This document shows positions 44,461 through 61,925 of a stretch of DNA of 64,000 nucleotides, one piece after another. The position numbers and the translations under genes were made by a program. Every line of letters starts with the position of its first letter. Within the stretch, counting starts at the first letter, position 1. Origin of the DNA: Rhizobium sp. BT04 (GTDB lineage Bacteria; Pseudomonadota; Alphaproteobacteria; Rhizobiales; Rhizobiaceae); contig NZ_CP125650.1 in NCBI RefSeq assembly GCF_030053135.1, positions 310,001 through 374,000 on the forward strand, given 5' to 3'. The notes under the pieces were generated by a model that did no database searches, was not told where the DNA came from, and was given only the letters and a program-made list of their open reading frames with translations.

Positions 44461-44475
44461 ATCAGACAATCTGAT
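44461..44475. promoter_or_regulatory. GntR-type operator upstream of its own gene
   Basis: ATCAGA-CAA-TCTGAT is a perfect palindrome with 6-bp arms and a 3-bp centre, 68 bp before the GntR start. It is the most symmetrical of a set of sites sharing CAGA-TTG-TCTG. Confidence 0.75.
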
Positions 44476-44542
44476 TGAAAGTTCCCCGCGAAGCAGCCAT
44501 ATATTTAGCTCAAATTCATTAGTGCTACGTAGGACATTGATC

Positions 44543-45223
44543 ATGGTAGATGTGGAGCTGCAGGTCGCTCGGCAAAATGCCTCTCTTCGAGTGCAAGTCG
44601 AAGAAAGGCTCAGACAGGCTATTGCGACGGGCAAGTTCAAGCCGGGGCAAAGGCTCGTCGAGCGCGAGCTTTGCGAAATGATCGGCGTGGGTCGCACGTC
44701 CGTCCGTGAAGCGCTTCGGCAGCTTGAGGCAGAGGGATTGATCACAAGCTTCCCCCACAAGGGTCCAGTTGTCAGTATCATAACCTATGAGGAGGCCGCT
44801 CAGCTCTACACCGTCCGCGCGCTGCTCGAGGGGTTTGCTGGTCAGCAGTTCGCCGAAAATGGAACGGCGGAAGATATTGCCACTTTGCAAGATGCCGTTA
44901 GAGAATTCGAAGCGTCGGCGGAAAGCGGCGTGGGACACAGGCTCATCGCTGCCAAAAACGCCTTCTATGACTGCTTGATGGATGGCAGCAAAAACGTCTT
45001 CGTCAGGCAAATGCTAACATCGCTGCACAACCGGATCAATCTTCTGCGCATGACTTCGATGACACAACCGGGGCGCCTCAAACATAGCATTGCAGAAATC
45101 AAAGAGATTGCCGAAGCGATCCAAAATCGCAACGGACCCAGGGCTGCGGCCGCTTGTAAGCACCACATTGATATGGCTGCGAAAGTCGCACTCGAGTACC
45201 TGCGCAACAACACCTCAGGCTGA
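44543..45223 (+). CDS. GntR family regulator, FadR subfamily
   Basis: 226 residues from ATG 44543. The N-terminal winged helix is LRVQVEERLRQAIATGKFKP GQRLVERELCEMIGVGRTSV REALRQLEAEGLI, the GntR signature. The C-terminal about 140 residues form the all-helical FCD ligand domain with the metal-binding histidines suggested in HHIDMAAKVALEYL and SLHNRINLLR. FadR-type proteins usually repress catabolic operons and release DNA on binding an acid substrate. It starts the dehydrogenase-teu cluster and is the likely reader of the TCAGA-N3-TCTGA sites. Confidence 0.92.
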   Translation: MVDVELQVARQNASLRVQVEERLRQAIATGKFKPGQRLVERELCEMIGVGRTSVREALRQLEAEGLITSFPHKGPVVSIITYEEAAQLYTVRALLEGFAGQQFAENGTAEDIATLQDAVREFEASAESGVGHRLIAAKNAFYDCLMDGSKNVFVRQMLTSLHNRINLLRMTSMTQPGRLKHSIAEIKEIAEAIQNRNGPRAAAACKHHIDMAAKVALEYLRNNTSG

Positions 45224-45247
45224 TGCCATAAGATTTTCCGAAAATTG

Positions 45248-45258
45248 ACAGATTGTCT
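45248..45258. promoter_or_regulatory. CAGA-TTG-TCTG operator after the GntR gene
   Basis: Within TTGACAGATTGTCTGAT and preceded by TTTTCCGA, the same arrangement as at 45451-45468. It overlaps a TTGACA -35-like hexamer. It lies 24 bp after the GntR stop, 290 bp before the dehydrogenase start. Confidence 0.65.
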
Positions 45259-45450
45259 GATGCTGGAGGTGGCCGGGTGTAATTAAATCCTTCAGGCACG
45301 GTGCTTTTGACAACGCAACAACCTCTCTGGTGTCCATCGGACGATAAGATGGGTGCTGCTTGCACGTCATTTTAAGTGAGGTGATTGAAGAAGCGACGGC
45401 AAAATTGGCGTCGTAGCGAGGGCGCGCCGGCCCAAGCATGAATTTTCCGA

Positions 45451-45479
45451 TTGACAGATTGTCTGATAGGTCGTTAACT
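45451..45479 (+). promoter_or_regulatory. Operator-promoter of the dehydrogenase gene
   Basis: TTGACA (45451-45456), 17-bp spacer and TTAACT (45474-45479) make a sigma-70-like promoter. The palindrome CAGATTGTCTG (45455-45465) overlaps the -35 hexamer, which implies repression when the regulator is bound. Confidence 0.75.
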
Positions 45480-45535
45480 ACTCCTCACTAACGGAGGTAG
45501 CTGATTGTGCTTGCCTCACATTCGGGAGCGGGACG

Positions 45536-46420
45536 TTGTCACCACGAAAAAATCTGCGCGTCGCCTTTATTGGTCTCGGCGCAATGGGCGGGCCGATGGC
45601 ACAACATCTGTTGTCGGCTCAATTCGAAGTCACTGGCTTTGATCTATCGGCCGAGGCTAGGGAAAGGTTCGCGGCCGTCGGCGGCGTTCCGGCAGAGACG
45701 GTAGCGGAAGCATTCAATGGGGCCGATGTTGCGGTTACCATGCTTCCCAACGGCAAGGTTGTTCAAGACGCGCTCTTCAAGGATGGGGCCTGGCAATCCC
45801 TGAGTGCTGACGCGCTTGTCATCGACATGAGCTCATCGGCGCCCAATGATACTCGTGAGCTCGCAGAGCGCTTGCATCAGAAGGGCTTGCGGCTGGTCGA
45901 TGCTCCCGTGTCAGGCGGAGTGAAGCGAGCCGTCGAAGGCTCTCTTACTATCATGGCAGGCGGTGCTTCTGACGATATCGATCAAGCTGATCCCATCCTG
46001 TGCGCCATGGGCGGCCAGATTTTTAGGACAGGCCCGATCGGCTCAGGGCACGCCATGAAAGCCATCAACAATTTCGTATCGGGAGCCGGGGTTCTGGCAG
46101 CTATCGAAGGCGTTCTTCTTGGCCGAACGTTTGGTCTCGATCCTAGAACGATCGTCGATATTCTCAACTCGTCGTCTGGCAAGAACAACGCAACAGAAGT
46201 GAAGATGAAGCAGTTCATCCTCTCGGAGACTTTTGGCTCTGGTTTTGCTTTGGGGCTTATGGCGAAAGACATTAGGATTGCAGCGGACTTGTCGAAGGCG
46301 CTCAATCTCCAGCTGCCGACATTGGCCGGTACCGCTGATGCCTGGGATGCTGCTCGGCATGCTTTAGGCCCCGATGTCGACCATACGAAAATTGCGCAGT
46401 TCGTGAAAGATCAGGCCTGA
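45536..46420 (+). CDS. NAD(P)-dependent beta-hydroxyacid dehydrogenase
   Basis: 294 residues; TTG start at 45536 with GGGAG upstream. N-terminal Rossmann loop FIGLGAMGGPMAQHLL (GxGxMGxPM), substrate-binding DAPVSGGVKRAVEGSLTIMA, and catalytic Lys in GHAMKAINNFVSGAG are all present, as in 3-hydroxyisobutyrate and tartronate-semialdehyde reductases. It oxidises a beta-hydroxy acid or reduces the semialdehyde. The semialdehyde would suit the aldehyde dehydrogenase at the end of the cluster. Exact substrate unknown. Confidence 0.93.
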   Translation: MSPRKNLRVAFIGLGAMGGPMAQHLLSAQFEVTGFDLSAEARERFAAVGGVPAETVAEAFNGADVAVTMLPNGKVVQDALFKDGAWQSLSADALVIDMSSSAPNDTRELAERLHQKGLRLVDAPVSGGVKRAVEGSLTIMAGGASDDIDQADPILCAMGGQIFRTGPIGSGHAMKAINNFVSGAGVLAAIEGVLLGRTFGLDPRTIVDILNSSSGKNNATEVKMKQFILSETFGSGFALGLMAKDIRIAADLSKALNLQLPTLAGTADAWDAARHALGPDVDHTKIAQFVKDQA

Positions 46421-46453
46421 CCGCGAAAAACTACGCCAAACTGACAGTTGAAA

Positions 46454-46475
46454 ATTGTCTGATAATCTGTCAAAT
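46454..46475. promoter_or_regulatory. Variant operator before the decarboxylase-like gene
   Basis: ATTGTCTGAT followed by AATCTGTCAAAT holds both half-sites (TGTCTGAT and the inverse of TTGACAGATT) but back-to-back rather than at the usual spacing. It is about 22 bp before the start codon at 46498, so it would sit at or after the transcription start. Confidence 0.6.
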
Positions 46476-46497
46476 ATGATGAAGGGAGCGAAACCCA

Positions 46498-46926
46498 ATG
46501 GCCACTTTGGACAGGAAAGATAAGGGGTCTAAGGCCGGCGAGCGAACAGCTCCATCGGAGCAGTTCAAGCGCGGACTTGCTACTCGTCGGCAGGTGATGG
46601 GGGACGCTTACGTTGATGCGGCCCTCGGAAAGGCGACCGACTTCACCTGGCCGATGCAGGAACTCGTCACCGAGTATTGTTGGGACAATATCTGGAACCG
46701 ACCTGGCCTCGACCGTCGCGCTCGATCGATCCTCAACCTTGGAATGATAGCGGTTTTAAACCGACCGCACGAGCTCAGAGGCCACATCCGCGGCGCCATC
46801 AACAACGGTGTTACGAAACAGGAGATCCAGGAGATCTTCCTTCAGGTGGCTATCTACGTTGGTGTGCCAGCAGGCATCGACAGTTTCAGGCATGCCCAGG
46901 AAGTATTCACCGAAATGGGCATTTGA
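46498..46926 (+). CDS. Carboxymuconolactone decarboxylase family protein
   Basis: 142 residues, ATG 46498 after GAAGGGAG. The sequence FKRGLATRRQVMGDAYVDAA then LVTEYCWDNIWNRPGLDRRA RSILNLGMIAVLNRPHELRG HIRGAINNGVTKQEIQEIFL matches the PcaC (4-carboxymuconolactone decarboxylase) type rather than the AhpD peroxidase type, lacking the CxxC motif. It probably acts on a ring-derived or lactone intermediate. It lies in the teu cluster with dehydrogenase and hydrolase genes. Confidence 0.9.
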   Translation: MATLDRKDKGSKAGERTAPSEQFKRGLATRRQVMGDAYVDAALGKATDFTWPMQELVTEYCWDNIWNRPGLDRRARSILNLGMIAVLNRPHELRGHIRGAINNGVTKQEIQEIFLQVAIYVGVPAGIDSFRHAQEVFTEMGI

Positions 46927-47003
46927 GAATGTGCTGTCCCGTGAGGGGGCATGTACAACATGCGCGGAGTTCTCAGCGCTTATCAACAAGGGAGGAGCCT
47001 AAA

Positions 47004-47387
47004 ATGGCGATAGATCTCAAGAAATTCATAGAATTCGTGCGGGAGGATTTCGAGTTCAAGCGCGAAACTCGTTATCTTAACGGTATATTAAAATGCGATT
47101 TCCCTACCCGCAGTGTAGCGCTTCATTTCGAGGACGGTACGTTGCTAAAGGTGGAAGAGGCCGAATACGACGACGACAAGTGCACTATCGTCATACGCGG
47201 GACCGGTTCACAGTGGGAGGCGCTGCTTCAGCACAAACCCTTGCCGTTTTATCAGTGCTTGCAGTCATCAAACATCAAGCATGGCCTCTACCTTAGCAGT
47301 AACAACGAAACCTTCGCGTATCTGCCTGCTCTCAACCGCATGACCACCCTGATGCGCAATGCCCGTTCTGAAGGAGCAGCAGCATGA
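47004..47387 (+). CDS. Small SCP2-like hypothetical protein
   Basis: 127 residues from ATG 47004, preceded by GGGAGGAG. The middle (VALHFEDGTLLKVEEAEYDD) and the acidic, alternating pattern recall sterol-carrier-protein-like small folds, but no firm family is recognised. It ends in an ATGA overlap with the alpha/beta hydrolase, so the two are made together. A lipid- or ligand-binding helper in the pathway is possible. Confidence 0.75.
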   Translation: MAIDLKKFIEFVREDFEFKRETRYLNGILKCDFPTRSVALHFEDGTLLKVEEAEYDDDKCTIVIRGTGSQWEALLQHKPLPFYQCLQSSNIKHGLYLSSNNETFAYLPALNRMTTLMRNARSEGAAA

Positions 47388-48280
47388 CCAAGTTTGACCC
47401 CATTATCGGCCGTTATCTCTATCTCACCGTAGAAGGTATCGAGTACCGCGTCTATTACGAAGAAGCGGGCCAGGGGATTCCGCTTCTCGTCGGTCATACG
47501 GCAGGGTCCGACGGTCGCCAATACCGTCATATGCTTTGCGATTCCGACGTGACGAAAAATTTTCGCGTCATCGCGTTCGATCTGCCGTATCACGGCAAGT
47601 CCCTTCCCCCCTACGGCGTTCGCTGGTGGGAGAAGGAATACAACATGACCAAGAAGTTCATGATGGACTTCCAGCTCGAACTCTCAAAAGCGCTCGACCT
47701 AGACCGCCCCGTTTATTTGGGCAGCTCCATGGGCGGCCATCTCGCGATCGACCTGGCATCGAACTATCCGGACAACTTCCGCGCCACGATCTCGGTCGAA
47801 GGTGCGTTGCGCTCGGCGGCGGAGTACGTCGACGTCGGTATGGCTGGCATCCGCAGGGAGTTCGACAATCCAAACGTCAATCGCACCTCCATCGGTGCGG
47901 CGATGATGCTGAATATCTCACCGTACTCGCCAGAAGCGAATGTCCGTGAAATCCAGTGGGAATACAGCTGCGGTGGACCGGGAATCTTCGCGGGTGATCT
48001 TTATTACTACTACTACGACCACGATGTGTCGCCAGAAGAAGCCAGCAAAATCGATACGTCGAAATGTATGCTATACTTCCTCACGGGCGAATACGATCCA
48101 AACACGTCCCCGGCCGATACCAAGATTGCTGCAGACCTGGTCAAAGGCTCCAAGTTTTGGACAATGGAAAAGCTCGGACATTTTCCCGTTACTGAGGACT
48201 ATAGCGAGTTCCGGAAGTATCTGTTGCCGATTCTTGAGGAGATCCAACAGTCATCAGCAGCCCGGTCTAAGGTTGCCTGA
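47384..48280 (+). CDS. Alpha/beta hydrolase
   Basis: 298 residues. GIPLLVGHTAGSDGRQYRHM is the oxyanion-hole region, FRVIAFDLPYHGKSLPPYGV the conserved strand-loop, and PVYLGSSMGGHLAIDLAS the nucleophile elbow with Ser in GSSMGG. FLTGEYDPNTSP and KLGHFPVTEDYSEF supply the acid and the catalytic His. All triad residues appear intact. It may open a lactone or cleave an ester next to the decarboxylase-like enzyme. ATGA overlap with the preceding gene. Confidence 0.92.
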   Translation: MTKFDPIIGRYLYLTVEGIEYRVYYEEAGQGIPLLVGHTAGSDGRQYRHMLCDSDVTKNFRVIAFDLPYHGKSLPPYGVRWWEKEYNMTKKFMMDFQLELSKALDLDRPVYLGSSMGGHLAIDLASNYPDNFRATISVEGALRSAAEYVDVGMAGIRREFDNPNVNRTSIGAAMMLNISPYSPEANVREIQWEYSCGGPGIFAGDLYYYYYDHDVSPEEASKIDTSKCMLYFLTGEYDPNTSPADTKIAADLVKGSKFWTMEKLGHFPVTEDYSEFRKYLLPILEEIQQSSAARSKVA

Positions 48281-48305: not shown

Positions 48306-49472
48306 ATGAGGTGCATTCTGAATGTCACACTTGGGGCGCTGATCTCGGTTAGCGCCCTGGCGACAACCGCTTACGCGGATGGTGTCGATCAGCTACCGGC
48401 TACAGAAAAGAAGATCTATGAAACTGTAGATCCGCAGATTCCATTGGGGGCGAGCGCCTACAAAGACTTCAAGCCCAAAAAGGGTCCTCCGTGGAAGATC
48501 GGCTATGCAAGCAGCTACGCTGGCAACACCTGGCGAGCCGCAGCTCTCGATGCGGTCATGAGCGATCTTTTACCGCGATCAAAGGCTGCGGGCCTGGTGT
48601 CTGATGTCGTGGTCACCCAGTCGGATCTTAAAGACGCCGTTCAGATCCAGCAGATGCGTCAAATGGTGGACGAAGGCGTCGATGCAATCATCATCTGCTG
48701 CTCGAACGTCACGGCTCTTAATCAGACGATCGAATATGCCTACAAAGCCGGTGTGCCGGTGTTCTCATTTTCGGGCTACGTGACGTCGCCATACGCCATC
48801 AATGGCGCGGCCAATCACGCGCAGGGCGGTGCCGAGATGGCGACGTGGCTGGCGGAAAAAATAGGAAAGAAGGGCAATATCCTTCTCGTTTCTGGTATTC
48901 CCGGTTTCGCTTCTTCGGACAGCTTTGACAAAGCGGCTAAGGAAGCACTTGCTAAGTACCCCGACATAAAGATCGTCGGTGAAGTTGCAGGGAAGTGGAC
49001 CGACCAGGTGGCCCAGGTCGAAGTTCAGAAGTTTCTTGCGACGAACCCGACGAAGATTGATGGGATCCTCACGCAGGGGGCCCAAGAGAACGGCGTTCTC
49101 AACGCAATGCTGCAGTCAGGTCGAGACATGATCCCGATTACTCTCGGGGGGGAAGCTTCCGCCGCGTGCTACTGGCGCAAGAACCCCGAGTTTGTGGACA
49201 GGAGTTTCCATATTTGGCCGCCGCGTCGCGAGATGCAACAGATGTGGGAGATCATGCTCCGCACATTGGAGGGACAAGGCCCTAAGGTTCAGTCCTTCCT
49301 TCGACCCGTCTTGCCTTACACCATCGATGAAGTCCGCGCGGCGATACCAGAAGATTGCGACTTGAACTCGACAGACTTCGTGGAGCCCAAGGCGGACGGG
49401 TGGTTTCCTGCTGCGATTGCTGCAGACTACTTCGAACGCCCGGCTGATCCCTGGAAGCCTGTGTCGAAGTGA
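48306..49472 (+). CDS. teuB: Sugar-type ABC transporter substrate-binding protein (TeuB-like)
   Basis: 388 residues from ATG 48306, with GGGAGGAG upstream and a signal peptide (MRCILNVTLGALISVSALAT then AYADG). The mature protein is a periplasmic binding protein of the ribose/LacI type (KIGYASSYAGNTWRAAALDA, VDAIIICCSNVTALNQTIEY, IDGILTQGAQENGVLNA). The order binding protein, ATPase, permease, permease equals the teuB-A-C1-C2 operon of R. tropici, which takes up compounds from bean root exudate. The symbol rests on that likeness in order and type. Confidence 0.88.
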   Translation: MRCILNVTLGALISVSALATTAYADGVDQLPATEKKIYETVDPQIPLGASAYKDFKPKKGPPWKIGYASSYAGNTWRAAALDAVMSDLLPRSKAAGLVSDVVVTQSDLKDAVQIQQMRQMVDEGVDAIIICCSNVTALNQTIEYAYKAGVPVFSFSGYVTSPYAINGAANHAQGGAEMATWLAEKIGKKGNILLVSGIPGFASSDSFDKAAKEALAKYPDIKIVGEVAGKWTDQVAQVEVQKFLATNPTKIDGILTQGAQENGVLNAMLQSGRDMIPITLGGEASAACYWRKNPEFVDRSFHIWPPRREMQQMWEIMLRTLEGQGPKVQSFLRPVLPYTIDEVRAAIPEDCDLNSTDFVEPKADGWFPAAIAADYFERPADPWKPVSK

Positions 49473-49563
49473 AACTGTTCTGCCCGGTGGGTCTTGCCAC
49501 CGGACAGAAGTTTCTCTTGTGGGAGGACCGCCTCGCGCGGCCGTTGGGATTAGAGGATCTCCG

Positions 49564-51117
49564 ATGCAAAACCAAACTACGATCAAGTTGATCAATGTTG
49601 CCAAGTCTTTCGGCGAGACTAAGGCCTTAAAGAAGTGTGATTTTGAAGCCCGGGCCGGAGAAGTGCACGCCATCGTCGGAGAGAATGGAAGTGGCAAAAG
49701 CACGATGGCGAAGATCATGTCTGGAGTGTTGCACCCAGATTCCGGGAGCGTTTCGGTCCTTGGAGAAGAGATTTCGACTCCGACTGACGCCAAGCGCATC
49801 GGGCTGACAACGATCTTCCAGGAAGTGCTGGTGGCCGACGAGGCCAGTGTATTGGAAAACCTGTATGTCGGGCGCGACGGCATCTTCCGCTCGCAGGGCG
49901 GCAGTGGTCGGCGTACCGAGGCTGAGGAGATCCTGAAACGCCTCGTCGGCAAGCCCGTGGATCTCGATCAGAACGTTGGGGCATTGCCTCTGAGCGTCAA
50001 GCAATGGATAGTTATTGCGCGAGCGGTCTTGCGCAGGCCGAAGGTCCTCATCCTCGATGAATCGTCTGCGGCATTAGACCTCGATTCCACGATCCGCCTC
50101 CACGAGGAAATTGATCGTCTCCGTAGGGAAGGTGCGACCGTGCTGATCGTAACGCATCGGATCGCTGAACTTGTCCGCATCGCCGATCGAGCCACGATCC
50201 TTCGCGACGGCGTCACCATTGGTACGCTCGAGAAGCATGAAATAACTGAAGAGAACCTGCTTTCAATGATGACGCCCGCGGACCGAAACGCAAGCGACGC
50301 GAAGGCGTACGAATCAAAGCAAGTAGGCGCCGCCGCGCCGGCCGTGGTAGCGGTAAGAGACCTCGTTACTCACAGCGCGGCAGCGCCCTTCGATTTCGAT
50401 CTACCGAAAGGAGCGATCATCGGTGTTGCAGGACTCGACGGGCAGGGGCAGGACGCTTTCGTACGCGCCGTTGCGGGTATCATCCAGCCTTTTGGTGGTA
50501 ATGTCCAAGTCTGGTCATCCAGCACCGAGAGAATGAAAAAGGTCGCATCGCTCGAAGACGCTACCAAAGCAGGAATCTCGTATATTTCCGGCGACCGCAA
50601 GCGTGAAGGTATCTTCCCTCAGCAGAGCATCTTCGAAAATCTTGCCATCGGCGTCTATCGCAAGAACCTCGGTCCTCTTGGTATAATCAATAAGGCCGGC
50701 CTCAAACCCATGTTCAAACGCGAGGTGGATCGGCTCCGGATTAAGATTGGAAGTCCGGCGAACAAGATCACCTCACTGTCGGGCGGAAATCAGCAAAAAG
50801 TTTTGATCGGCCGTGCCTTTGCAAACGAACCGTCCGTCATCGTCCTTAACGATCCCGCTCGCGGTGTCGACCTCGGAACGAAGCGCGATCTCTACCGCGA
50901 ACTGCGCCTGTTCACGGAGAAGGGTGGCAGCGTGATTTATCTATCAAGCGAAATTGAAGAGTTCATCGGCTTTGCGGACCGCGTCGACGTCTTCTTTGCT
51001 GGAAGGCTTTTCCGGTCGCTAGCAGGCGAGGACATAGCGGAAGAGCCAATCTTGGCCGCAATGTTTGGAAAATCGCCAAACGCCTCCATCGAGTTCGATC
51101 TGGAAAGGACTGCATGA
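49564..51117 (+). CDS. teuA: Sugar-type ABC transporter ATPase with two nucleotide-binding domains (TeuA-like)
   Basis: 517 residues, RbsA/MglA type. First domain: Walker A GENGSGKST, signature LPLSVKQWIVIARAV (degenerate ABC signature), Walker B VLILDESSAALD. Second domain: degenerate P-loop VAGLDGQGQDAFVRA, signature LSGGNQQKVLIGRAFA and Walker B VIVLNDPARGVDLGTK. This asymmetric pair is normal for the family. It powers import with the two permeases that follow; its stop overlaps the first permease start (ATGA). Confidence 0.93.
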   Translation: MQNQTTIKLINVAKSFGETKALKKCDFEARAGEVHAIVGENGSGKSTMAKIMSGVLHPDSGSVSVLGEEISTPTDAKRIGLTTIFQEVLVADEASVLENLYVGRDGIFRSQGGSGRRTEAEEILKRLVGKPVDLDQNVGALPLSVKQWIVIARAVLRRPKVLILDESSAALDLDSTIRLHEEIDRLRREGATVLIVTHRIAELVRIADRATILRDGVTIGTLEKHEITEENLLSMMTPADRNASDAKAYESKQVGAAAPAVVAVRDLVTHSAAAPFDFDLPKGAIIGVAGLDGQGQDAFVRAVAGIIQPFGGNVQVWSSSTERMKKVASLEDATKAGISYISGDRKREGIFPQQSIFENLAIGVYRKNLGPLGIINKAGLKPMFKREVDRLRIKIGSPANKITSLSGGNQQKVLIGRAFANEPSVIVLNDPARGVDLGTKRDLYRELRLFTEKGGSVIYLSSEIEEFIGFADRVDVFFAGRLFRSLAGEDIAEEPILAAMFGKSPNASIEFDLERTA

Positions 51118-52088
51118 TGTCTGGAATCGCATTCCGTCAAATCACCCAGGACCGTTCCCTCTTCGTGCCGGCCGGCCTATTCATTGTCCTTTTGGTCGCC
51201 GTTGCCCTACGCGGACACGGGCTATTCACGAACAACGGCCTCGCAGGTGCAATCCTTGTCGCCACGCCCTTGATTCTAACGGCGCTTGCCCTCACTCCCA
51301 TTGTCATGGCGGGTCGTGGAGCAGTGGACCTTTCAGTTGGCCCCTTGATGGGGTTCATCAACGTTACCCTTATTACCTGGCTTGTGGGTAACGGAATTAC
51401 CAACCCTATCGCAGTGATAGTATGGGCAGTCGGCCTGGGAGCGGCATTCCAGCTACTCCAGGCGCTGGTTATCATTTATGTGCGTGTCGCTCCGATAATC
51501 GTTACGCTGTCGGGTTTTCTTGTCCTCTCCGGGTTGAACCTGATGGTGATGTCCCGACCGGGTGGAGTCGCGCCCGACTGGATGCTTAGCTGGGGGGCGG
51601 GGACCGACATCATGTCACCTGTTTTGCTGTTGCTGGTTGCAGCGTATGCATTATGGCTCCTTCTCAGGGGGACTATGTTTTACCGCAACCTTCGCATGAC
51701 GGGTGCGGATGAGCGCATGGCGTATACGAGCGGCGTTCGAGTGGACGCAGTCCGCATCATCGCCCACGTTGTTGGTGGAGCATTCGCTGGACTTGCCGCC
51801 CTCAGCTACACGGCGCTGATCTCCTCTGGTGATCCGACGCAGGGCAGCACCTACACCCTTCAGGCTGTTACGGCCCTGGTTCTCGGAGGTGCGAGCCTCT
51901 CCGGTGGTCGTGGTGGAGCACTTGGATCTACGCTTGGCGCGATCAACATGTTCCTCATCTCCTATCTCCTCTCCACCTTCAACTTCGGCACGGTTTCGGG
52001 GTTCGTTACCCAGATGGCATTCGGCTTAATCCTCGTCGGATCACTTCTCGTGAACGTCTTTGTCATCAGTCGCCGCGCGGTTGTGTAA
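51114..52088 (+). CDS. teuC1: Sugar-type ABC transporter permease 1 (TeuC1-like)
   Basis: 324 residues with about nine hydrophobic segments. AGRGAVDLSVGPLMGFINVT is the BPD_transp_2 (RbsC) signature, and a LVLGGASLSGGRGGALGSTL block near the C-terminus marks the coupling region. ATGA overlap with teuA. It forms a heterodimer with the following permease. Confidence 0.92.
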   Translation: MMSGIAFRQITQDRSLFVPAGLFIVLLVAVALRGHGLFTNNGLAGAILVATPLILTALALTPIVMAGRGAVDLSVGPLMGFINVTLITWLVGNGITNPIAVIVWAVGLGAAFQLLQALVIIYVRVAPIIVTLSGFLVLSGLNLMVMSRPGGVAPDWMLSWGAGTDIMSPVLLLLVAAYALWLLLRGTMFYRNLRMTGADERMAYTSGVRVDAVRIIAHVVGGAFAGLAALSYTALISSGDPTQGSTYTLQAVTALVLGGASLSGGRGGALGSTLGAINMFLISYLLSTFNFGTVSGFVTQMAFGLILVGSLLVNVFVISRRAVV

Positions 52089-52099
52089 GGAGCAAGATA

Positions 52100-53119
52100 A
52101 TGGTCGCGACAGTTATGAATTCCGAAATCAAATCGGCTCAGAAGTCTAACCCGCTCAAGGCTCATCGGAGCATCGTCATTGGCTTTGTTCTTCTGGCCTC
52201 TCTCTTAGCACTCGGTGCATTGCTGGTCCCCGGCTTCGTATCATCCCAAAACGCGCGTTCAATCCTTCTTCTCGCAGCGTTTCTGGGGCTTGCCTCCATT
52301 GGCCAGACCCTGTGCGCTCTGGTCGGTGCGCTCGATCTTTCGATACCATATATTATTGGAGGCGCGAACATCCTCCTTCCCAGCCTTATGGTCGCAGGTA
52401 TTCCCGCTCCCCTCGCGATGCTGGTTGTCATGCTCCTCGGTGCGCTTGTCGGGGCCGCCAATGGCGCCCTGAGCTTCCGTCTCCAAGGGCAAGCGCTGAT
52501 CATGTCGCTCGGAGTTGGCTTCGCGGCCGTCGGTGCGGTCCAGATCTACACCTCACTCGGCTCGGCGTTTGGTGGTACAGTGTTTGCTCCGGTACCCGAA
52601 TGGCTGAGGAACATTTCGGCGTTCAACGGAAAGTTTTTCGGCCTGTCGCTGCCTCCGGTCATCGTGATCTGGGCTATCGTCGCCATCGCGCTTGGATGGT
52701 TCATGTACAACACCTGGTTTGGCCGCAGCATTTACGCCGTCGGCGGAAGCCGGACGGCGGCCGCCCGCCTCGGAATCTCCGAATTCAAGGTCTGGACCGT
52801 CATCCATAGCGTCAGCGGTGCCATGTCTGCAATCACGGGCATGCTGCTACTAGGGTTTTCCGGTGGTGGCTTCGTCGGCGTGGGCGACCCTTATCTTTTC
52901 ACCACCGTAGCAGCGGTGGTGATTGGAGGGACGTCGCTTCTTGGTGGGGCGGGCGGCTATGGCGCGACAGTGCTCGGTGTTCTTGTCCTGACTGTACTGA
53001 CCTCGCTTCTAGTTGGCCTCGGACTGAACTTTCCGGCGCAGCAGGCTGTCGTCGGTCTGCTCATCGTTCCGATGGTCGCGATATACGCACGGTCACCACA
53101 CATTCGAAATCAGATATGA
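52100..53119 (+). CDS. teuC2: Sugar-type ABC transporter permease 2 (TeuC2-like)
   Basis: 339 residues, RbsC-type, with about nine hydrophobic segments, SIGQTLCALVGALDLSIPYI near the N-terminus and VVIGGTSLLGGAGGYGATVL near the C-terminus. It starts 11 bp after permease 1 and completes the importer. The next gene, an aldehyde dehydrogenase, follows after 23 bp. Confidence 0.92.
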   Translation: MVATVMNSEIKSAQKSNPLKAHRSIVIGFVLLASLLALGALLVPGFVSSQNARSILLLAAFLGLASIGQTLCALVGALDLSIPYIIGGANILLPSLMVAGIPAPLAMLVVMLLGALVGAANGALSFRLQGQALIMSLGVGFAAVGAVQIYTSLGSAFGGTVFAPVPEWLRNISAFNGKFFGLSLPPVIVIWAIVAIALGWFMYNTWFGRSIYAVGGSRTAAARLGISEFKVWTVIHSVSGAMSAITGMLLLGFSGGGFVGVGDPYLFTTVAAVVIGGTSLLGGAGGYGATVLGVLVLTVLTSLLVGLGLNFPAQQAVVGLLIVPMVAIYARSPHIRNQI

Positions 53120-53142: not shown

Positions 53143-54630
53143 ATGGCAATCTCCAGCACCCTGCTAGGCCGTTTAAAGGACCAGACTCTCGTTCGCGAGC
53201 AGATGCTGGTTGGAGGAAAGTGGTCGAGCGAAGGGGTAAACGGCACACGCATCAACGTGCTAAACCCCTCCACGATGGACGTCCTTGCCTCTTTGCCTAG
53301 CGCTGGCCTTGCTGAAGTGCGAGCCTCTATCGATGCTGCAAAGGCTGCACAGAAGAAGTGGGCTAAGGTTTCGGCGAAGGAACGCTCGCTGATCATGCGG
53401 AAGTTCTACGAAGAGGTGGTAGCTAACGCTGAAGACCTGGCCGTAATTCTGACATCGGAAATGGGCAAGCCACTGGCGGAAGCGCGTGGCGAGATTGCTT
53501 ACGGCGCTTCCTACATCGAATGGTTCGGTGAGGAAGCCAAGCGTGTCTATGGTGACACCATTCCAGGTCACCAGGCCGACAAGCGACTGCTTGTCATCAA
53601 GCAGCCGGTTGGCGTTGTGGCCGCCATCGCTCCTTGGAACTTTCCGTCGGCGATGGTGTGCCGCAAGATCGCGCCGGCGCTCGCGTCCGGCTGCGCGATC
53701 GTATTCAAGCCTGCTGCCGAGACTCCGTTATCGGCGCTTGCATTGGCGATCCTCGCGGAGCGTGCCGGAATACCCGATGGCTTGTTCAGCGTCCTCCCGA
53801 CGGATAATGCAAGAATGTTTGGCGAGGAGGTCTGCTCCAACCCGGTCGTCAAGAAACTGACCTTCACCGGTTCGACCGAAGTTGGCCGTATCTTGATGGC
53901 GCAAGGCGCCCAGAAGATCATGAAGCTGAGCCTGGAACTCGGCGGCAATGCGCCGTTTATCGTTTTCGACGATGCAGATCTCGACCAGGCGGTCGAGGGG
54001 GCTATGCTTTCTAAGTTTCGTAACGCGGGTCAAACCTGCGTGTGCGCGAACCGTATTTACGTACAGAGCGGGATCCATGACAGGTTCGTCGAGAAGCTGG
54101 CAATGCGCGTGAGTGCCTTGCAGGTTCTTGACGGGTTTGAGAGCGGGGCGACGATCGGCCCGTTGATCAACGATGAAGCGGTAGCAAAGCTCTATGGTCA
54201 TATCGATGACGCTGTGACCAAGGGTGCGACTGTCGTGGTTGGTGGTGACCGCGATGCTCGCGGAGGCACGTTCGTCCAACCAACGCTTCTCTCGGGTGCC
54301 ACAAAGGATATGAAGGTTGCGCGTGAGGAAACCTTCGCGCCTCTGGCTCCGGTGTTCAAGTTCGATACTGTCGAGGAAGTCATCGAACTCGCGAACGATA
54401 CGGAATTCGGCTTGGCAGCCTACTTTTTCGCCAACGACCTCAGGAACGTTTGGAAGGTCACAGAGGCGCTGGAATACGGCATGGTTGGCGTGAACACGGG
54501 TCTGATTTCCACCGAATTAGCGCCATTCGGCGGCGTCAAGCAATCCGGCTTCGGCCGAGAGGGCTCAAAGTACGGAATGGATGACTTCTTATCCATGAAA
54601 TACGTCTGCATGGGCGGGATCGGCGCATAG
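53143..54630 (+). CDS. NAD(P)-dependent aldehyde dehydrogenase (succinate-semialdehyde type)
   Basis: 495 residues, ATG 53143 after AAAGGAAG. Conserved blocks are VAAIAPWNFPSAMVCRKIAP, FTGSTEVGRIL, the catalytic Glu in LELGGNAPFIVFDDADLD and the catalytic Cys in NAGQTCVCANRIYV. This is closest to the GabD-like group. It probably oxidises the semialdehyde formed earlier in the pathway. It is the last gene of the cluster; no terminator was identified after it. Confidence 0.95.
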   Translation: MAISSTLLGRLKDQTLVREQMLVGGKWSSEGVNGTRINVLNPSTMDVLASLPSAGLAEVRASIDAAKAAQKKWAKVSAKERSLIMRKFYEEVVANAEDLAVILTSEMGKPLAEARGEIAYGASYIEWFGEEAKRVYGDTIPGHQADKRLLVIKQPVGVVAAIAPWNFPSAMVCRKIAPALASGCAIVFKPAAETPLSALALAILAERAGIPDGLFSVLPTDNARMFGEEVCSNPVVKKLTFTGSTEVGRILMAQGAQKIMKLSLELGGNAPFIVFDDADLDQAVEGAMLSKFRNAGQTCVCANRIYVQSGIHDRFVEKLAMRVSALQVLDGFESGATIGPLINDEAVAKLYGHIDDAVTKGATVVVGGDRDARGGTFVQPTLLSGATKDMKVAREETFAPLAPVFKFDTVEEVIELANDTEFGLAAYFFANDLRNVWKVTEALEYGMVGVNTGLISTELAPFGGVKQSGFGREGSKYGMDDFLSMKYVCMGGIGA

Positions 54631-55142: not shown

Positions 55143-56149
55143 CGATCTTCGCCGGCGCCAGGCCTTTATGGTAGATCCGGATGCGTCCGGGTCATCCAGA
55201 CGTCAAACGCGTAATGCAGGAAGAGATTCGATAGGATCGGGCTGACCACGCCCCCTTGCGGGGTACCACGCATCCGCTCAATGACTTCTCCGTTCTTTTC
55301 CATAGGCGCGGTCAACCATCTTTCGATGTAGAGCAGAGCCCAGTTGCATTTAACGTCTTTTCTGACCGTCTTCAGCAAGAGATCATGCGGAAGATTGTCG
55401 AACAGCTTTGATGTCGGATTCCGGATCAATCATCTGCTTGACCACCATCTGCGCGATCCGATCACTGACCGCCGGTTCCAGATCTTGTAGAGATTTCTCG
55501 CAAGGTCTTTGTCAAACATCTCCAGGGTCTCACCGTCCACCCGGCTGCACCACGGTTGGCTTTGACCGCTTTGTAAGCTTCGTACACTTGCCGCTTCTCA
55601 ATCCGAAACGGCTTGTCTGTCGTACCTATCGAAGTCATCCTGTTTCCAGTTGTTCCAAACAATACGACCACCTGATCCGATCCCTTTGCTCCGGCCCCAT
55701 TACAGGGCCCTCAACGCTCATACGGATCGGTCCGCCCCAGTCTCCTGCATCGGTACTCTCGCCTTACGGTTTCTCCGCTTGGGCTTCTCCCTTGGCATCA
55801 GGAGCCTGGTTCCTGCAGTTCCGGGTGAAAGCCTGTGTCCAACTCACGCCCCCTCTACGCCGGTCGCCGCCCGCCCAATCATCAGGCACCCGGCGGACTT
55901 GTCCCAGGATGACGAAACAGTCCTGGTTTCGACGACGCTTATATTCATAACGGCGCGTCTTCGGAGGGTTCACTTTCGTTCGTCTTCGGACACGCACCTG
56001 CTCGGATCTCGTCCGAACTTTTCATCCGGCGCTCACCACCACGGCTCTTTACCGCAGCAGCTCGGACTGGTTTGAGACCCGCTCCTGAAAGCCGATCCCG
56101 GAGGGCCATCCTCCATCATTCACGCAGCTTCACGTTACGGGGTTAGCTC
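55143..56149 (-). mobile_element. Group II intron remnant inserted in an IS630 transposase gene
   Basis: On the minus strand a GTGTG start (GTGYG consensus), near 56149, directly follows transposase coding sequence. About 450 bp of structured non-coding sequence follows, including GAGCGCCGGATGAAAAGTTC and CGTAAGGCGAGAGTACCGAT stretches typical of intron ribozyme regions. Fragments of the intron-encoded reverse transcriptase come next. Domains V and VI at the 3' side were not recognised. RmInt1 of Sinorhizobium likewise resides in an IS630-type element. Confidence 0.7.
55166..55671 (-). pseudogene. Group II intron reverse transcriptase/maturase, deleted and frameshifted
   Basis: FRIEKRQVYEAYKAVKANRG AAG continues in another frame as VDGETLEMFDKDLARNLYKI WNRR. 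After DPES the sequence jumps into KLFDNLPHDLLLKTVRKDVK CNWALLYIERWLTAPMEKNG and MRGTPQGGVVSPILSNLFLH YAFDVWM. The central part of the reverse transcriptase is deleted. The protein ends at THPDLP, before the catalytic YADD box, the maturase and any endonuclease domain. Splicing help and mobility are lost. Confidence 0.85.
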
Positions 56150-56637
56150 ACACTGAACTCCTTCCGTGCCTCTGCAGCACACTTTCGTCGATGAAGATCA
56201 GTTTCTCCGGATCGAGGTCCAATTGACCATCGAACCAGGCGCGCCGGCGCTTCAGGACGTCCGGTCGGTCCTGCTCCAGTGCGTGTGCGGTCTTTTTTAA
56301 AGGTCCACCCACGGCTTCGAAGCCAAGCGCCAAGTGCGCTGCGGCTGATCTTCACCTGCCGCTCGACGGACAAGCGCTCAACCATCTCATCGAGCGTCAC
56401 ATCCCTACGCTCGTTGATCAACGCGACAACGAATTCCTCGTGTGCATCCACTGCCGAAGGTCGTCTCCAGCCCTGTGGCCGAGCAGTCAGCTCACCCTCT
56501 TTCGCTCTTGCAATCCAGCGGATCGCCGTCGAAATCCCAACTCCGAAACGAGCCGCAGCCTGTCGAGCCGACATGCCCGCCGCAGACGCTTTCAAAACCC
56601 GTATTCGAAGATCATCGCTCAGGGCCTGTCCCATCAT
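56143..56637 (-). pseudogene. IS630-family transposase, 5' part, cut by the intron
   Basis: The first frame gives MMGQALSDDLRIRVLKASAA GMSARQAAARFGVGISTAIR WI, the helix-turn-helix start of IS630 OrfA. A second frame from about 56333 holds LDLDPEKLIFIDESVLQRHG RSSV, the first catalytic Asp region of OrfB, as expected for the frameshifted two-frame organisation of these elements. Coding stops where the group II intron begins. The remainder of the transposase was not found beyond the intron. Confidence 0.85.
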
Positions 56638-57032: not shown

Positions 57033-59042
57033 ATGCCCAAGTCCATTAGACTCGCTTTATCTTTGATATTTGTTCTGCTCTCTCTTCTCGCGGCGGGCCA
57101 GGGCATCGTGAGTATCGTCAAGCTGCTGTCCATTAGGAGCAATATATCCGAAGTTGCCAGCAACTGGCTGCCATCGATCGATGTGATAAATCGGATCAAT
57201 ACGATCACCGGGGACTACCGCATCCTGCAGTTCAGGCTGGTGACAAACTCATCAGATTCGACGAGCCTTGCGCATAATATCACCACCTTCCGCCAGAAGA
57301 TGGAGGATCTCGCGAATGCCCGTGGTGAATATGAGCCGATGGTGACATCCGGCGAGGAGCGTCAGGCCTATGACGCGTTCTCCGCTTTGTGGACGCAATA
57401 TCAGGAGGATGGCGAGCGGATTGTTAAACTAATGCAGGCAGGCAAGAAGGATGAAGCATTTGCTCTTCTAACGAGTGACGCCACGACGAAACTGTATAAT
57501 GATAGCGGAGCGCTCCTTGACCAGGATGTCGCAGTTAACAAGCGTGGTGGAGTCGCGGCCGTCGGAAACACGATGGGCGCCGTTTCATCGACGGTTTTGG
57601 TCACCATTCTTGCCATGGCGCTGGCAACTACGACGGGCATTATAGCCCTGCTTTACTGCATCCGGAAGATTACCGATCCGATCTCGCGGTTGACTACCAC
57701 GATGGGCGTACTGGCAGATGGTAATCTCGACACTGAGGTTCCTTTCGCAATGCGCGCCGACGAAATCGGCAAGATGTCGAGAGCCGTTGAGGTATTCAAG
57801 CAAAACAGCATCAAGGCCCGCGATCTGAACGCGCAGGAGGCCGCGTTGCAGGCCAAGAGCGCCGACTTGCAGTCGAGCATTGCCGAGGTGGTGTCAGCCG
57901 CCGTAGCCGGTGACTTCACCCATCGCATCACCAAGAAATACGGCGATGCGGCTCTCGACCGTTTTGCAGGAAGCGTCAACGAGCTGGTCACCTCTGTTGA
58001 CCGGGGCATCGCCGAAACTCGCCGAGTTATCTCAGCGCTTGCCGATGGGGATCTGACGGAAAACATGTGCGGCGAGTTTCAGGGAGCCTTTGGTGAACTG
58101 AAGAGTAATGTCAACGCCACCATGGCAGCCCTTCGATCCGTATTAGGCGAGGTTCGCTCCGCCGTCGACACGATCAACGGCGGAGCCGGCGAGATGCGCA
58201 TCGCCTCAGGCGACCTTTCAAAGCGCACGGAACAGCAAGCCGCGGCCCTGGAGGAGACCTCTTCGGCGCTTGAGGAAATCACGGTGGCGGTAAAAAGCTC
58301 GACAGAAAGAGCCACGGAAGCCAGCCATATGGTCGATGAGGCACGCAGAAGCACCGAGCAGTCGAGCGCGGTTGTCAAAGACGCGGTCGCCGCCATGGGC
58401 CGCATCGAGCAGGCCTCGGATGAAATCGGCCAGATCATTAACGTCATTGACGAGATCGCCTTCCAGACCAATCTTTTGGCCCTTAACGCCGGCGTCGAGG
58501 CGGCGCGTGCGGGTGACGCTGGAAAGGGTTTCGCCGTTGTGGCTCAGGAGGTGCGTGAACTGGCACAGCGCTCCGCCACTGCCGCCAAGGATATCAAGGC
58601 GCTGATCAACCGGTCCGGCGACGAGGTCAAAACTGGGGTCAGGCTGGTAACGGCCACAGGCGATGCCCTTGGTCTAATCCGAGGCCACGTGATCAAGGTG
58701 AACGAGCACGTTCATACGATCTCGACGGCGGCACGAGAGCAATCGACCGGGCTGGCGGAAGTCAGCACTGCGGTCAACCAGATGGATCAGACGACCCAGC
58801 AGAATGCGGCGATGGTGGAAGAATCGACGGCGGCCACCAACCGGTTGGCGGATGAGGCTTCCAATCTGGCGCGGCTTATTGCGCGCTTCAGGCTCGACGG
58901 TTCGACTGTTGTACGGCGTGTTGCCCACCAGAACGGTAAGCCGGCCGCCTCGCCAGCGCGTGCCCTCTCCCAGAAGCTTGCCGGCGCCTTCGGCGGACGT
59001 ACTACAGCCGCTGTCGCGACTAAGGAATGGGAAGAGTTTTAA
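57033..59042 (+). CDS. Methyl-accepting chemotaxis protein
   Basis: 669 residues. The first membrane helix is near residues 7-27, a helical-bundle periplasmic domain runs to about 180, the second helix is at about 186-208, and two HAMP regions follow. The signalling tip [51 protein letters not shown] is fully conserved. It ends KEWEEF, fitting the W-x-x-F pentapeptide that tethers CheR/CheB. The ligand is unknown; plasmid location next to an exudate-uptake cluster suggests a root compound. Confidence 0.96.
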
Positions 59043-59563: not shown

Positions 59564-59749
59564 ATGTCCAAAGTTATCGCAATCAATTTCGGGCAACAGG
59601 CTAAGACAGATACCCACTTAGAAAGCCACGAAGATGCACAGTCGCAGCGCCTGGAGCAAGAGCGGCTGCAAATGATCCAAATCACCAATCACCTTGAAGC
59701 ACTGTACGCTCGGCTGCTGACCGTCTGTGGCGACAGACCGAAAAATTAA
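59564..59749 (+). CDS. Small hypothetical protein
   Basis: 61 residues from ATG 59564, beginning MSKVIAINFGQQAKTDTHLE and ending CGDRPKN. Polar, with a Gln/Glu-rich predicted helix (SQRLEQERLQMIQITNHLEA). The upstream CGAGAG is only a fair ribosome-binding site. I recognise no family. It could be an adaptor-like or regulatory peptide beside chemotaxis debris, but nothing shows it. Confidence 0.4.
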   Translation: MSKVIAINFGQQAKTDTHLESHEDAQSQRLEQERLQMIQITNHLEALYARLLTVCGDRPKN

Positions 59750-59819
59750 GGGCGCAGCGATGGTATAGCCCGGTGGAGCGCTGCGAACCACAGCGCCATC
59801 GCGAAGGGCTATTTCCGGG

Positions 59820-60854
59820 TCAGCTTTCGGGCGGAGAGGCCTGCGAAGCACACATAGATCGCCTATGCGGCAGAACATCGCTCATATGCACTGTTTTAGA
59901 TGGCAGTTCGCCGTAACGTCTCTTGTACTCTGCAGCAAAACGGCCGAGGTGTGTGAAGCCCCACTTAAGCGCTATTTCCGAAACGCTGATTTTAGCGCCG
60001 TTTTGCAGCAGTTCCTGTCGAGCTGCGCACATACGCAAGTCTCGGAGGTGCATTGTGGGGCTGGTATTACGAAATTGTCGGAAGCCGTGCTGCAAAGTCC
60101 GCACGCTGACCTTGGCCGCAGCGGCGATATCGTTAAGGGAAATGGGTTGAGCCATATGCTCTTCCATAAACTCCATTGCCCGTTTCACGTGGCGAGGCGT
60201 GGGAGACGGAGACGGACGACGAAGTTCATCGGTATAGCGATGCATACAGCTTTCGATCAAAAGGTACTCTATCGCGTCGAGGAGCGAGCTATAGGCCGAC
60301 GGGCATTGTCGCAGAGCCCCCCCGGCACTGAGGCCGCGATGGGCAGACAGGGCTAGTTCTCGCATGAGCGTTCCCGCGCTCGATGCAAGATCAAGGGTCG
60401 GCTGAATTTGCAGATTTCCGCTGATCGTCCGATCGAGCATGCGAGAAAGCTTGTCACGCAAGGATTGCGTATCGATCGTCAATGACAGTTGAGATCTTAT
60501 GCCATCTTGTCGGGCATTCAGCGGAGCATTTGCAACATGCGGCGACTCTACCTGTTGCCCAGACCAATGAAAGACTGCATTCCCGGACGCCGGCAGGAAG
60601 ACCGTTACGACGTCAACTGGGGAATCTATCATGACCGAGAACGCCCCTTCATGATGGGCATCCGCAACGCCAAAACCATCAAGGGAAATTCGACTGCAGC
60701 GAGAGTTAAGCGATCTACTGTCGTGTTGAGCAAGGTCAGAGGACGCCAGGGGCGATGATATCAAAGGCAAAAGACGTTCGGGATCGGAGCCCTCGATAAA
60801 GTTGTCTTTCACTAAGGTCCCTTCATCGGGCTTGCTGAACAAACTTTCGGTCAT
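59820..60854 (-). CDS. AraC family transcriptional regulator
   Basis: 344 residues. The C-terminal two helix-turn-helix domain is clear: RHVKRAMEFMEEHMAQPISL NDIAAAAKVSVRTLQHGFRQ F and ISVSEIALKWGFTHLGRFAA EYKRRYGELPS. The N-terminal about 200 residues form an AraC-binding-like sensing domain of the type seen in AndR/FeaR-like regulators of aromatic catabolism. No target is obvious next to it. No TCAGA-type operator lies at its start. Confidence 0.92.
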   Translation of the reverse strand: MTESLFSKPDEGTLVKDNFIEGSDPERLLPLISSPLASSDLAQHDSRSLNSRCSRISLDGFGVADAHHEGAFSVMIDSPVDVVTVFLPASGNAVFHWSGQQVESPHVANAPLNARQDGIRSQLSLTIDTQSLRDKLSRMLDRTISGNLQIQPTLDLASSAGTLMRELALSAHRGLSAGGALRQCPSAYSSLLDAIEYLLIESCMHRYTDELRRPSPSPTPRHVKRAMEFMEEHMAQPISLNDIAAAAKVSVRTLQHGFRQFRNTSPTMHLRDLRMCAARQELLQNGAKISVSEIALKWGFTHLGRFAAEYKRRYGELPSKTVHMSDVLPHRRSMCASQASPPES

Positions 60855-61144
60855 CCAATATAAACCTATCTATGAACACCAACTCGCACATGCCGGGACT
60901 AGTTTTCCAAACCTTCAAAGCTCGAGACCGGATGGCGTGCGAGCGATTTTGATCGCGTACATGACCGATTCGGACCTTTGTGGAGGCCGGTTGAATCTCT
61001 CATTCCCTAGGCTTTCGTCATGGCGGATCATCACCAGCACCGACATCCACGTTCTCCCGCTCGAGATGGCCTCCTAGTTTTTCAGCGCTGCAGTTGGGAA
61101 GCCTCTAATGATGCGATGACTGGCTTCCACAAGCCTCGAACAGA

Positions 61145-61173
61145 TTGACAGATTGTCTGATATACGTTAATGC
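61145..61173 (+). promoter_or_regulatory. Orphan TTGACAGATTGTCTGAT operator-promoter
   Basis: TTGACA at 61145-61150 overlaps the palindrome CAGATTGTCTG at 61149-61159, with a TTAATG-like -10 about 17 bases on. This is the same arrangement as upstream of the dehydrogenase gene 16 kb away. No gene begins within 500 bp downstream. Confidence 0.65.
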
Positions 61174-61274
61174 TATTCCTGATCAAAGGCAAGGCAGCAT
61201 CAGGGAAATCTGCCACGGTTCTAGTGGAGTTCCCGCACGGCAAATCAATCTAAAGATGCCTCCCAAGGCGAGGG

Positions 61275-61306
61275 GTGACGGGCTGCTTTCGATCGCAGCC
61301 CGTCAC
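61275..61306. terminator. Perfect 12-bp hairpin
   Basis: GTGACGGGCTGC pairs with GCAGCCCGTCAC around an 8-base loop. No T-run follows on either strand, so it is a stable RNA structure or weak terminator. It lies about 125 bp after the orphan promoter start. Confidence 0.55.
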
Positions 61307-61896
61307 GGGAAGGGTGGGAGTGCTATGAGTGGGAGAGAACCTACGCCAACCGACCTTGGAGGCCGTTGAGTCGACACGGAGAAAAATGATTGTGCTGTAG
61401 GATGGCCCCACGATTTCGCCACACGCTGGTCCTCTTAACCTGCGCATCAGCATACTTCGGTTATGACGTATAAGAGAGGCACGCTCCAGGCTCAACACTC
61501 GGAGACGCAAAGACGTCGACGAGTTCTTTTGGCCTACTAAGCGAGGCGGTCGCGGCAAATATCAATGCGTAAGCCGCGCCTCGTCGCATTGAGTTGACTT
61601 TGCGCTCTTCTTAGCGGGTACGGACTCCGGGCGTCTGATTGGGCAAAAGAAGAGCTTAAGGACGAAACCTGATGATGGTCAAACAGCTTGTGCTGCCATA
61701 GGCGTGCTGTTGTCTGTGCCGCGCGAACGCGAAAAGCGCGATCAAATCGGAACGTGGCGGCGAGAGAAGACTAACAGGAAAGACCACATCAAACTCAACC
61801 GGGTGTCGGAATACCGATGCTTACGGCATTGCGTGCATGAGGCCTCAAAATGACGCCGGTCTCGACATGTGTCCGCCGAAAATCGCAAAAAAGGAA

Positions 61897-61925
61897 TTGA
61901 CAGATTGTCGGACAAAAATTTTACT
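61897..61925 (+). promoter_or_regulatory. Operator-promoter of the SDR gene
   Basis: TTGACA (61897-61902), 17-bp spacer and TTTACT (61920-61925). The operator reads CAGATTGTCGG (61901-61911), one base from the CAGATTGTCTG palindrome. Transcription should start near 61932, 51 bases before the leader peptide start. Confidence 0.7.

Follow-up and report, generated by a model that had tools for sequence, protein, structure and literature searches.

How can catabolic genes that lie in separate blocks of a symbiotic plasmid be held under common control? This question is raised by a 64,000-nucleotide stretch of Rhizobium sp. BT04 (C4:310001-374000, hereafter the window), in which a short palindrome recurs between 44 and 62 kb, starting upstream of a gene for a GntR-type regulator, gntR1. 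C4, a replicon of 422,655 bp, is one of seven contigs of the 6.99-Mb genome. The gntR1 region (44161-47400 of the window) matches 35 PLSDB plasmid records at 99% identity or more, nearly all of them bean-derived and including p42d of R. etli CFN42 (99.7%) and pB of CIAT 652 (100%); C4 is the symbiotic plasmid of a bean-nodulating Rhizobium that belongs to the R. etli/phaseoli type. An earlier note on the window had proposed that the palindrome ties an SDR-family gene and an orphan promoter at 61 kb to a teu uptake cluster at 44-54 kb, as remnants of one catabolic island. Sequence comparisons make it very likely that the palindrome is the shared operator of two sister repressors, GntR1 and GntR2, that govern a plasmid catabolic regulon which includes teu and is released by exudate, and that this island was once contiguous.

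Distribution and conservation of the palindrome

The exact core of the palindrome, CAGATTGTCTG, occurs in the window at 44463 on the minus strand and at 45249, 45455 and 61149 on the plus strand, and a copy with one change, CAGATTGTCGG, lies at 61901. TTGACA hexamers start at 45245, 45451, 61145 and 61897, ATCAGACAATCTGAT is located at 44461-44475, and a "rearranged version" reported near 46454 corresponds to TTGAAAATTGTCTGATAATCTGTCAA at 46448-46473. Thus, all of the sites claimed earlier are present within a few bases of where they had been placed. That they are far above chance holds for the exact and extended forms of the motif. The loose form is weak: with up to two mismatches the core is found 26 times in the window versus 15.7 +- 4.2 times in shuffled sequence, one of 100 shuffles reaching 26, and this search, being only mildly above chance, was dropped in favor of an extended 17-mer, TTGACAGATTGTCTGAT. 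Ten of the 12 exact cores in the genome lie inside C4:307434-400397, 93 kb of the 423-kb replicon (binomial 1e-17, for a segment chosen after the sites were seen). All 12 genomic copies of the 17-mer at two or fewer mismatches are on C4, where 0.02 are expected, with 0.32 expected elsewhere; at three or fewer mismatches there are 16, 15 of them on C4 (between 307813 and 410950), the other being on C1. As a control, the reversed pattern matched once in the exact-core scan and three times in the 17-mer scan at up to three mismatches. With gene starts on C4 placed by homology, the 12 sites at two or fewer mismatches are all intergenic; the matches inside open reading frames (ORFs) are two cores on C6 and the C1 match, each in a long ORF, and C4:410934. 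Frequent copies outside promoters, which the earlier note had named as evidence against a regulon, were not seen in this genome-wide scan.

The sites most likely form one regulon, larger than was first reported. Its earlier description was right in joining the sites and too narrow in scope, as a second GntR paralogue and ten further sites lie outside the window. Apart from a GH3 beta-glucosidase (site at C4:307813, gene at 308166), the set spans C4:354.4-406.3 kb, of which the window holds only the first part. In C4 coordinates, the window sites are those of gntR1 (354461), the gap between gntR1 and HIBDH (355245 and 355451), CMD1 (356457, three mismatches to the 17-mer), the orphan (371145) and the SDR gene (371897). 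Farther along the replicon, sites accompany MBL1-ADH1-MBL2-gntR2 (380189), the gntR2-ABH2 gap (383914), the divergent SDR3 and flavin reductase-CMD2-LLM monooxygenase-SBP3-aminotransferase-GFA operons (390480 and 390511), FMN reductase-ribAB (396062, three mismatches), ADH2 (399313), a phosphoglycerate-mutase-like gene (400302) and teuBAC1C2-ADH3 (400383, a perfect site).

The same site stands ahead of orthologous genes in diverged genomes, as expected of a single regulon. Six relatives that carry both blocks of the island were compared by synteny (CIAT899, GR64, pAtA74a, HAMBI105, G470 and G444); in these and the BT04 plasmid, seven lineages in all, the sites before teuB, ADH2 and HIBDH are 0.94, 0.93 and 1.00 identical. 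For the rest of the upstream sequence the values are 0.49, 0.36 and 0.44, and no other 17-column window exceeds 0.74, 0.51 and 0.61, respectively. One might suppose that the sites are leftovers of promoters that were duplicated together with paralogous operons and that no common control exists now. The operons are indeed paralogous (GntR1/2, CMD1/2, and several substrate-binding proteins), and two relic sites do exist, at 307.4 and 61.1 kb; however, flanks that have decayed to 36-49% identity around sites kept at 93-100%, and a variant specific to the ADH2 promoter, TTGACTGATTGTCTG, kept in seven of seven lineages, make this explanation highly improbable. The GH3 site is identical in R634 (L169) and R. 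sophorae (L200), but their flanks are also very alike, so that this case is weak.

A candidate repressor pair and its operator

GntR1 (226 amino acids; 44543-45223, plus strand) and GntR2 (C4:383191-383880) are 73% identical, and near full-length matches to models (phnR_burk 11-211, PdhR 15-223) and to PDB chains place both among FCD-type GntR proteins. The proposal that a GntR protein is the likely regulator gained support from its co-occurrence with the site and from the operator near its own gene. Within the genus, 33 of 148 genomes carry the 17-mer (at most one mismatch), and exactly these 33 carry the GntR (E<=1e-60), a count inflated by the travel of site and gntR on one plasmid. Among 394 genomes of the family, 11 contain the 17-mer at this threshold, four within the genus and seven outside it; three of the seven (G444, G470 and G235) encode a GntR 62-86% identical, and each of the other four has a single one-mismatch site and no GntR above 41%. 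Conversely, GntR homologues at E<=1e-50 are found in 29 of the 394: the four genomes of the genus, the same three outside it, and 22 at 43-47% identity. Outside the genus, GntR identity above 47% is thus confined to G444, G470 and G235, all with an exact site nearby, and none of the 22 loci at 43-47% has a site under five mismatches within 900 bp of the gene center. In G470, a second GntR copy (L097, G470:C3:50492-51160) has one TGA inside the matched frame.

A collection of named genomes was searched with the 17-mer alone, yielding 116 stretches, of which 80 were examined. A GntR at least 50% identical is encoded in 45 of these and other regulon proteins (at least 45%) in 23, many of these 68 being near-copies from R. 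etli-type plasmids; the remaining ones include Bosea, Bradyrhizobium, Afipia, Tardiphaga, Stappia, Acuticoccus, Henriciella and one Burkholderia, with GntRs at 54-64%. The 12 stretches with neither comprise nine from outside Proteobacteria, two Mesorhizobium/Hyphomicrobiales metagenome-assembled genomes, and one other bacterium. In a tree of 53 GntR proteins, a single branch (support 98/90) sets off the 26 site-bearing ones as one group. The tree carries a long-branch warning, and its site-bearing rows from the named-genome search were chosen by site; L136, L160, L185 and L193 were set by hand to "motif" for a three-mismatch site or an exact site elsewhere in the stretch, and L096 was labelled "none" despite a three-mismatch match. 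Nearly all site-bearing GntRs share the recognition helix GVGRTS[VI]REALRQLEAEG (L180 differs by one residue, and L214 was not parsed), whereas distant GntRs mostly have GVSRTSLREALRELQ there.

Another regulator, for instance a TetR-type protein such as CymR, might own the site, since the cumate operator, to which CymR binds, shares the 11-mer CAGACAATCTG with it (cmtO primer, PMC3694467). We regard this as unlikely: the cumate dyad, AAACAGAC..GTCTGTTT, has another center and other arms, the protein family differs, and GntR is the only regulator seen in all of the site-bearing islands inspected in full, although no search was aimed at CymR homologues. The AraC-family regulator of the window has no homologue at E<=1e-20 in the stretches from Shinella, HAMBI105, pAtA74a, CIAT899, G470, G444, G058 and G235. 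Among the papers listed by a literature search with the motif letters, and judged by title, most were unrelated medical or molecular work, and three deal, or possibly deal, with cumate switches.

Sites also flank the gntR1 gene itself. An operator that reads ATCAGACAATCTGATTG in plus-strand letters lies on the minus strand at 44461-44477, 65 bp ahead of the gntR1 ATG, where the earlier note had put it, and is probably an autoregulatory site. Exact-core sites stand upstream of gntR1 in four of the six relatives (CIAT899, GR64, pAtA74a and G470), which, like BT04, have sites on both sides of the gene; HAMBI105 and G444 have one downstream only.

The shape of the operator was derived from 62 sites of ten sources (BT04 and nine others), with antiparallel matches within 15 bp merged, the site inside mcp genes dropped, and sites of more than three mismatches to the 17-mer (44461, C4:307432 and similar) left out. 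The center of the CAGA-TTG-TCTG palindrome described before ranks second; the best dyad is longer, about 27 bp, and centered on the T of TCTGA. Pairing of at least 0.5 reaches 10 bp to each side, bar one position, and extends into columns unused for site selection. Against AATCTGTCAA, the right half scores a mean of 5.7 of 10, versus 2.9 for shuffled words and 5.0 for the highest of 500 shuffles; part of this signal could stem from -10 boxes, which start inside the right half. The site at 46448 is a near-complete long dyad.

A promoter for a specialized sigma factor, rather than an operator, could in principle account for the 17-mer, as many copies have a perfect -35 box (TTGACA) for a left half. 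The -10 boxes are poor, however: at ten sites tested, eight match three to four of six positions, and those at 45245 and C4:383914 one to two, so that a promoter at each copy is too strong a reading. In addition, the sites at 44461, 46448 and C4:380189 face away from their gene, and the conserved block is a dyad that continues past the -35 box. These features render the sigma-factor explanation very unlikely. Sites in both orientations that overlap -35 boxes fit a repressor site, although the GntR proteins may activate instead of repress.

We infer that GntR1 and GntR2 bind this dyad, whose left half can double as a -35 box, and that a dimer seated on it would keep RNA polymerase from about ten promoters. 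The predicted targets are uptake systems including teuBAC1C2, two CMD proteins, SDR, ADH and aldehyde dehydrogenases, MBL and alpha/beta hydrolases, an FMN monooxygenase with a flavin reductase and a riboflavin gene, the GH3 glycosidase, and gntR1 itself. Repression would be lifted when a compound of bean exudate, or an intermediate formed from it, occupies the FCD domain, and the two paralogues may divide this labor.

Several observations weigh against this repressor model, in addition to the inflated count within the genus. Binding, repression through the -35 overlap, and ligand release are deduced from sequence throughout. No site was detected upstream of gntR1 in HAMBI105 and G444 by synteny comparison, or before CMD1 in GR64 at up to three mismatches. 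The right halves of the BT04 sites score from 0 to 10 of 10, nine of 14 at 5 or less, and many R. etli sites have weak -10 boxes. The coupling is also imperfect: one of five more distant GntRs (31-42% identity) has a three-mismatch site nearby (L096, 42%), and in L160, L185 and L193 the stretch does have the exact site, but more than 900 bp away from gntR. Finally, the site-bearing islands of Bosea, Bradyrhizobium, Stappia and others show no tie to bean. The module is therefore not confined to bean symbionts, and the inducer need not be bean-specific.

A probably once contiguous island and its remains

Past the gntR1 stop codon, the first block of the window continues on the plus strand. A perfect 17-mer 21 bp beyond the stop (45245-45261), with a weak right half and no -10 box, is perhaps an auxiliary operator; a second (45451-45467), with its TTGACA -35 box, precedes HIBDH (45536-46420), a 3-hydroxyisobutyrate dehydrogenase-like reductase that scores below curated cut-offs. 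In this gap (45245-45467), R. etli-type plasmids carry a pair of sites at a distance of 206 bp, and the six relatives have one each. CMD1 (46498-46926), of the carboxymuconolactone decarboxylase family (PcaC model 144.3 bits, cut-off 155.7), follows the long dyad at 46448-46473 and is preceded by a site at three or fewer mismatches in five of the six relatives. There follow a conserved hypothetical protein of 127 amino acids (47004-47387), the alpha/beta hydrolase ABH1 (47384-48280), a sugar-type ABC transporter with substrate-binding protein, ATPase and two permeases (48306-53119) and, as the last gene, a succinate-semialdehyde dehydrogenase-like gene (53143-54630) named gabDb in CIAT 652.

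The suggestion that one catabolic island was split is supported by synteny. From the gntR1-gabD block to ADH2/teu the distance is 0.3-3.7 kb in six of six relatives versus 33.5 kb in this plasmid, and in G444 the MBL1-ribAB, gntR1-gabD and ADH2-teu blocks together make up a single stretch of some 36 kb. We suggest that the contiguous island was rearranged in the R. etli plasmid lineage and that the shared operator would keep its pieces together. Between the halves, the methyl-accepting chemotaxis protein (MCP), AraC gene and insertion sequence (IS) remains reported before are present, but most of the intervening DNA consists of other blocks of the same regulon. The MCP gene, mcpG (57033-59042, plus strand), has no site at up to three mismatches ahead of it, and no site faces the AraC gene (59820-60854, minus strand), the orphan site lying 290 bp upstream on the opposite strand. 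Amid the IS remnants, an Rfam group II intron match (RF01999, 114 bits) lies at 55996-56114 on the minus strand, and an ORF at 56143-56637, also minus, looks like a piece of an IS630 transposase; in p42d, the annotation places the IS630 element ISRel6 ahead of this same MCP gene.

Operators also seem to have survived where their genes were lost. C4:307384-307501 (L029:17384-17501) shares 79-81% identity with the sequence ahead of gntR1 in CIAT899 and GR64, and no convincing GntR protein remnant was found beside this site. The 119-bp relic stands upstream of the GH3 beta-glucosidase. The perfect orphan 17-mer at 61145-61161 (plus strand) had been taken for an orphan promoter; as judged from two relatives, it is most likely a relic of a lost gntR-HIBDH junction and belongs to no separate live gene. 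In R. giardinii, an exact site ahead of the SDR homologue lies inside a 145-bp remnant, 70% identical to that strain's own intact gntR1-HIBDH junction and preceded by a piece of the gntR1 end; in R711, the site is kept with 14 residues resembling the GntR1 end (E 0.03). No convincing GntR remnant adjoins the window site, where the operator alone is kept. In CFN42, an IS66 element separates the orphan site from that of the SDR gene.

A 74-residue frame opens at a TTG inside the orphan site, and there is otherwise no plus-strand ORF of over 50 residues between it and the SDR gene. A coding or RNA-family meaning was rejected: BLAST and tBLASTx gave no match to relatives beyond the operator, and no Rfam hit reached the gathering threshold. 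A strong GC hairpin without a T run (61275-61306, plus strand; fold z -2.8 for 61178-61310) lies about 110 bp past the site and is possibly the stop of a short transcript or part of a short RNA.

As proposed, the SDR gene (62051-62800, plus strand) is tied to the regulon by its own site, TTGACAGATTGTCGGAC, at 61897-61913, with a -10 box, TTTACT, that matches four of six positions at a spacer of 17. The usual YxxxK motif, read by eye, seems to be absent from the protein, and its homologues in R. giardinii, R711 and GR64 are 64-66% identical. An MCP gene and then an orphan substrate-binding protein follow. This protein (C4:375710-376909) and another (C4:392869-394038) are rbsB1-like and have no adjoining ATPase or permease genes; the two may share the transporter at 49-53 kb. 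A further ABC set lies beside the SBP3 gene in CIAT899 and one downstream of GFA in G058, each with its own site. The presence of FMN reductase and ribAB (C4:396104-397919) in the regulon fits an FMN-dependent LLM monooxygenase.

Bean exudate and known systems

The 44-54 kb cluster proved not to be teu. In CIAT 652 its transporter genes are named rbsBb/Ab/Cb1/Cb2, and teuB/A/C1/C2 as annotated there map with 100% identity to C4:400512-405199, 26 kb beyond the window, teuC2 as two overlapping pieces. The annotated teu operon has a perfect site of its own, and its homologues in six of six relatives have one at one mismatch or fewer. In CIAT899, the region with GntR and a teuB homologue (92%) belongs to pRtrCIAT899a, the plasmid on which teu was described: exudates of bean and Macroptilium induce it, and it is needed for nodulation competitiveness, according to a passage of PMC3557214 citing Rosenblueth 1998. 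Passages of PMC4125696 place teu on the CFN42 and CIAT652 symbiotic plasmids and report that it was not found in the mimosae strain Mim1, and PMC8581550 describes, for R. phaseoli Ch24-10 in bean exudate, a rise of ABC transporter genes reported to be bean-exudate-induced in R. tropici. A review states that such single mutants are normally without clear phenotypes, which speaks against a strong role (PMC3682122). Among 53 plasmid records with a GntR at least 80% identical, 43 give Phaseolus as the host or source, one of them labelled biovar mimosae (IE4771); the other ten are five from Agrobacterium/Shinella and five from Rhizobium without a named host plant.

No regulator of teu was found in the literature searched, to which the original 1998 description did not belong. 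Neither regulator nor operator is described in the relevant passages of PMC3557214, PMC4125696 and PMC8416774; by term look-up, the main texts of two R. etli network papers (PMC11387232 and PMC9611204) do not contain teu, and the GntR passages of the former concern other genes. A candidate regulator, operator and gene list are now named for this cited bean-exudate uptake trait affecting nodulation competitiveness, and the candidate GntR-operator pair makes inducer and pathway directly testable. The sole, tentative lead to a substrate is fusaric acid, used as a carbon source by Burkholderia sp. IMCC1007 according to PMC10293998; the island of this strain encodes GntR, CMD, ABH, LLM and ribAB homologues.

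Somewhat more speculatively, a portable regulator-operator catabolic module, spread by plasmids and islands among Alphaproteobacteria and as far as a Burkholderia, may have become the bean-exudate response of common-bean rhizobia, with an operator that outlives its genes as fossil sites. If so, two sister GntR repressors and one long operator would join a glycosidase, several uptake systems, hydrolases, and a flavin monooxygenase pathway that comes with a flavin supply of its own, and the fossil sites would record how the island broke up.

How does this regulon compare with known systems? It shares a perfect site with teuBAC1C2 of R. tropici and R. etli, from which the ABC and catabolic operon at 44-54 kb is separate. 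GntR1 and GntR2 reach the cut-off of none of the 25 NCBIfam models listed; the best match, PhnR_burk (TIGR03338; 116.8 and 127.3 bits), was rejected as an assignment, its cut-off being 271.5, and no phosphonate genes were noticed in the annotated islands. The closest PDB entry by sequence is 7xp0, a FadR/FCD-type GntR (E 4e-21). Repressors of this type, such as FadR, PdhR and McbR of E. coli, combine a winged helix-turn-helix with an FCD domain and act at an odd-length dyad over the promoter of neighboring catabolic targets; their operator consensus is TnGTnnnACnA. The core TTGTCTGATAA resembles this consensus, and the architecture, odd-length dyad and neighboring catabolic targets agree in general features. 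The system described here differs in the length of its dyad (about 27 bp), in its pair of paralogous regulators, and in the number of its predicted target promoters (about ten).

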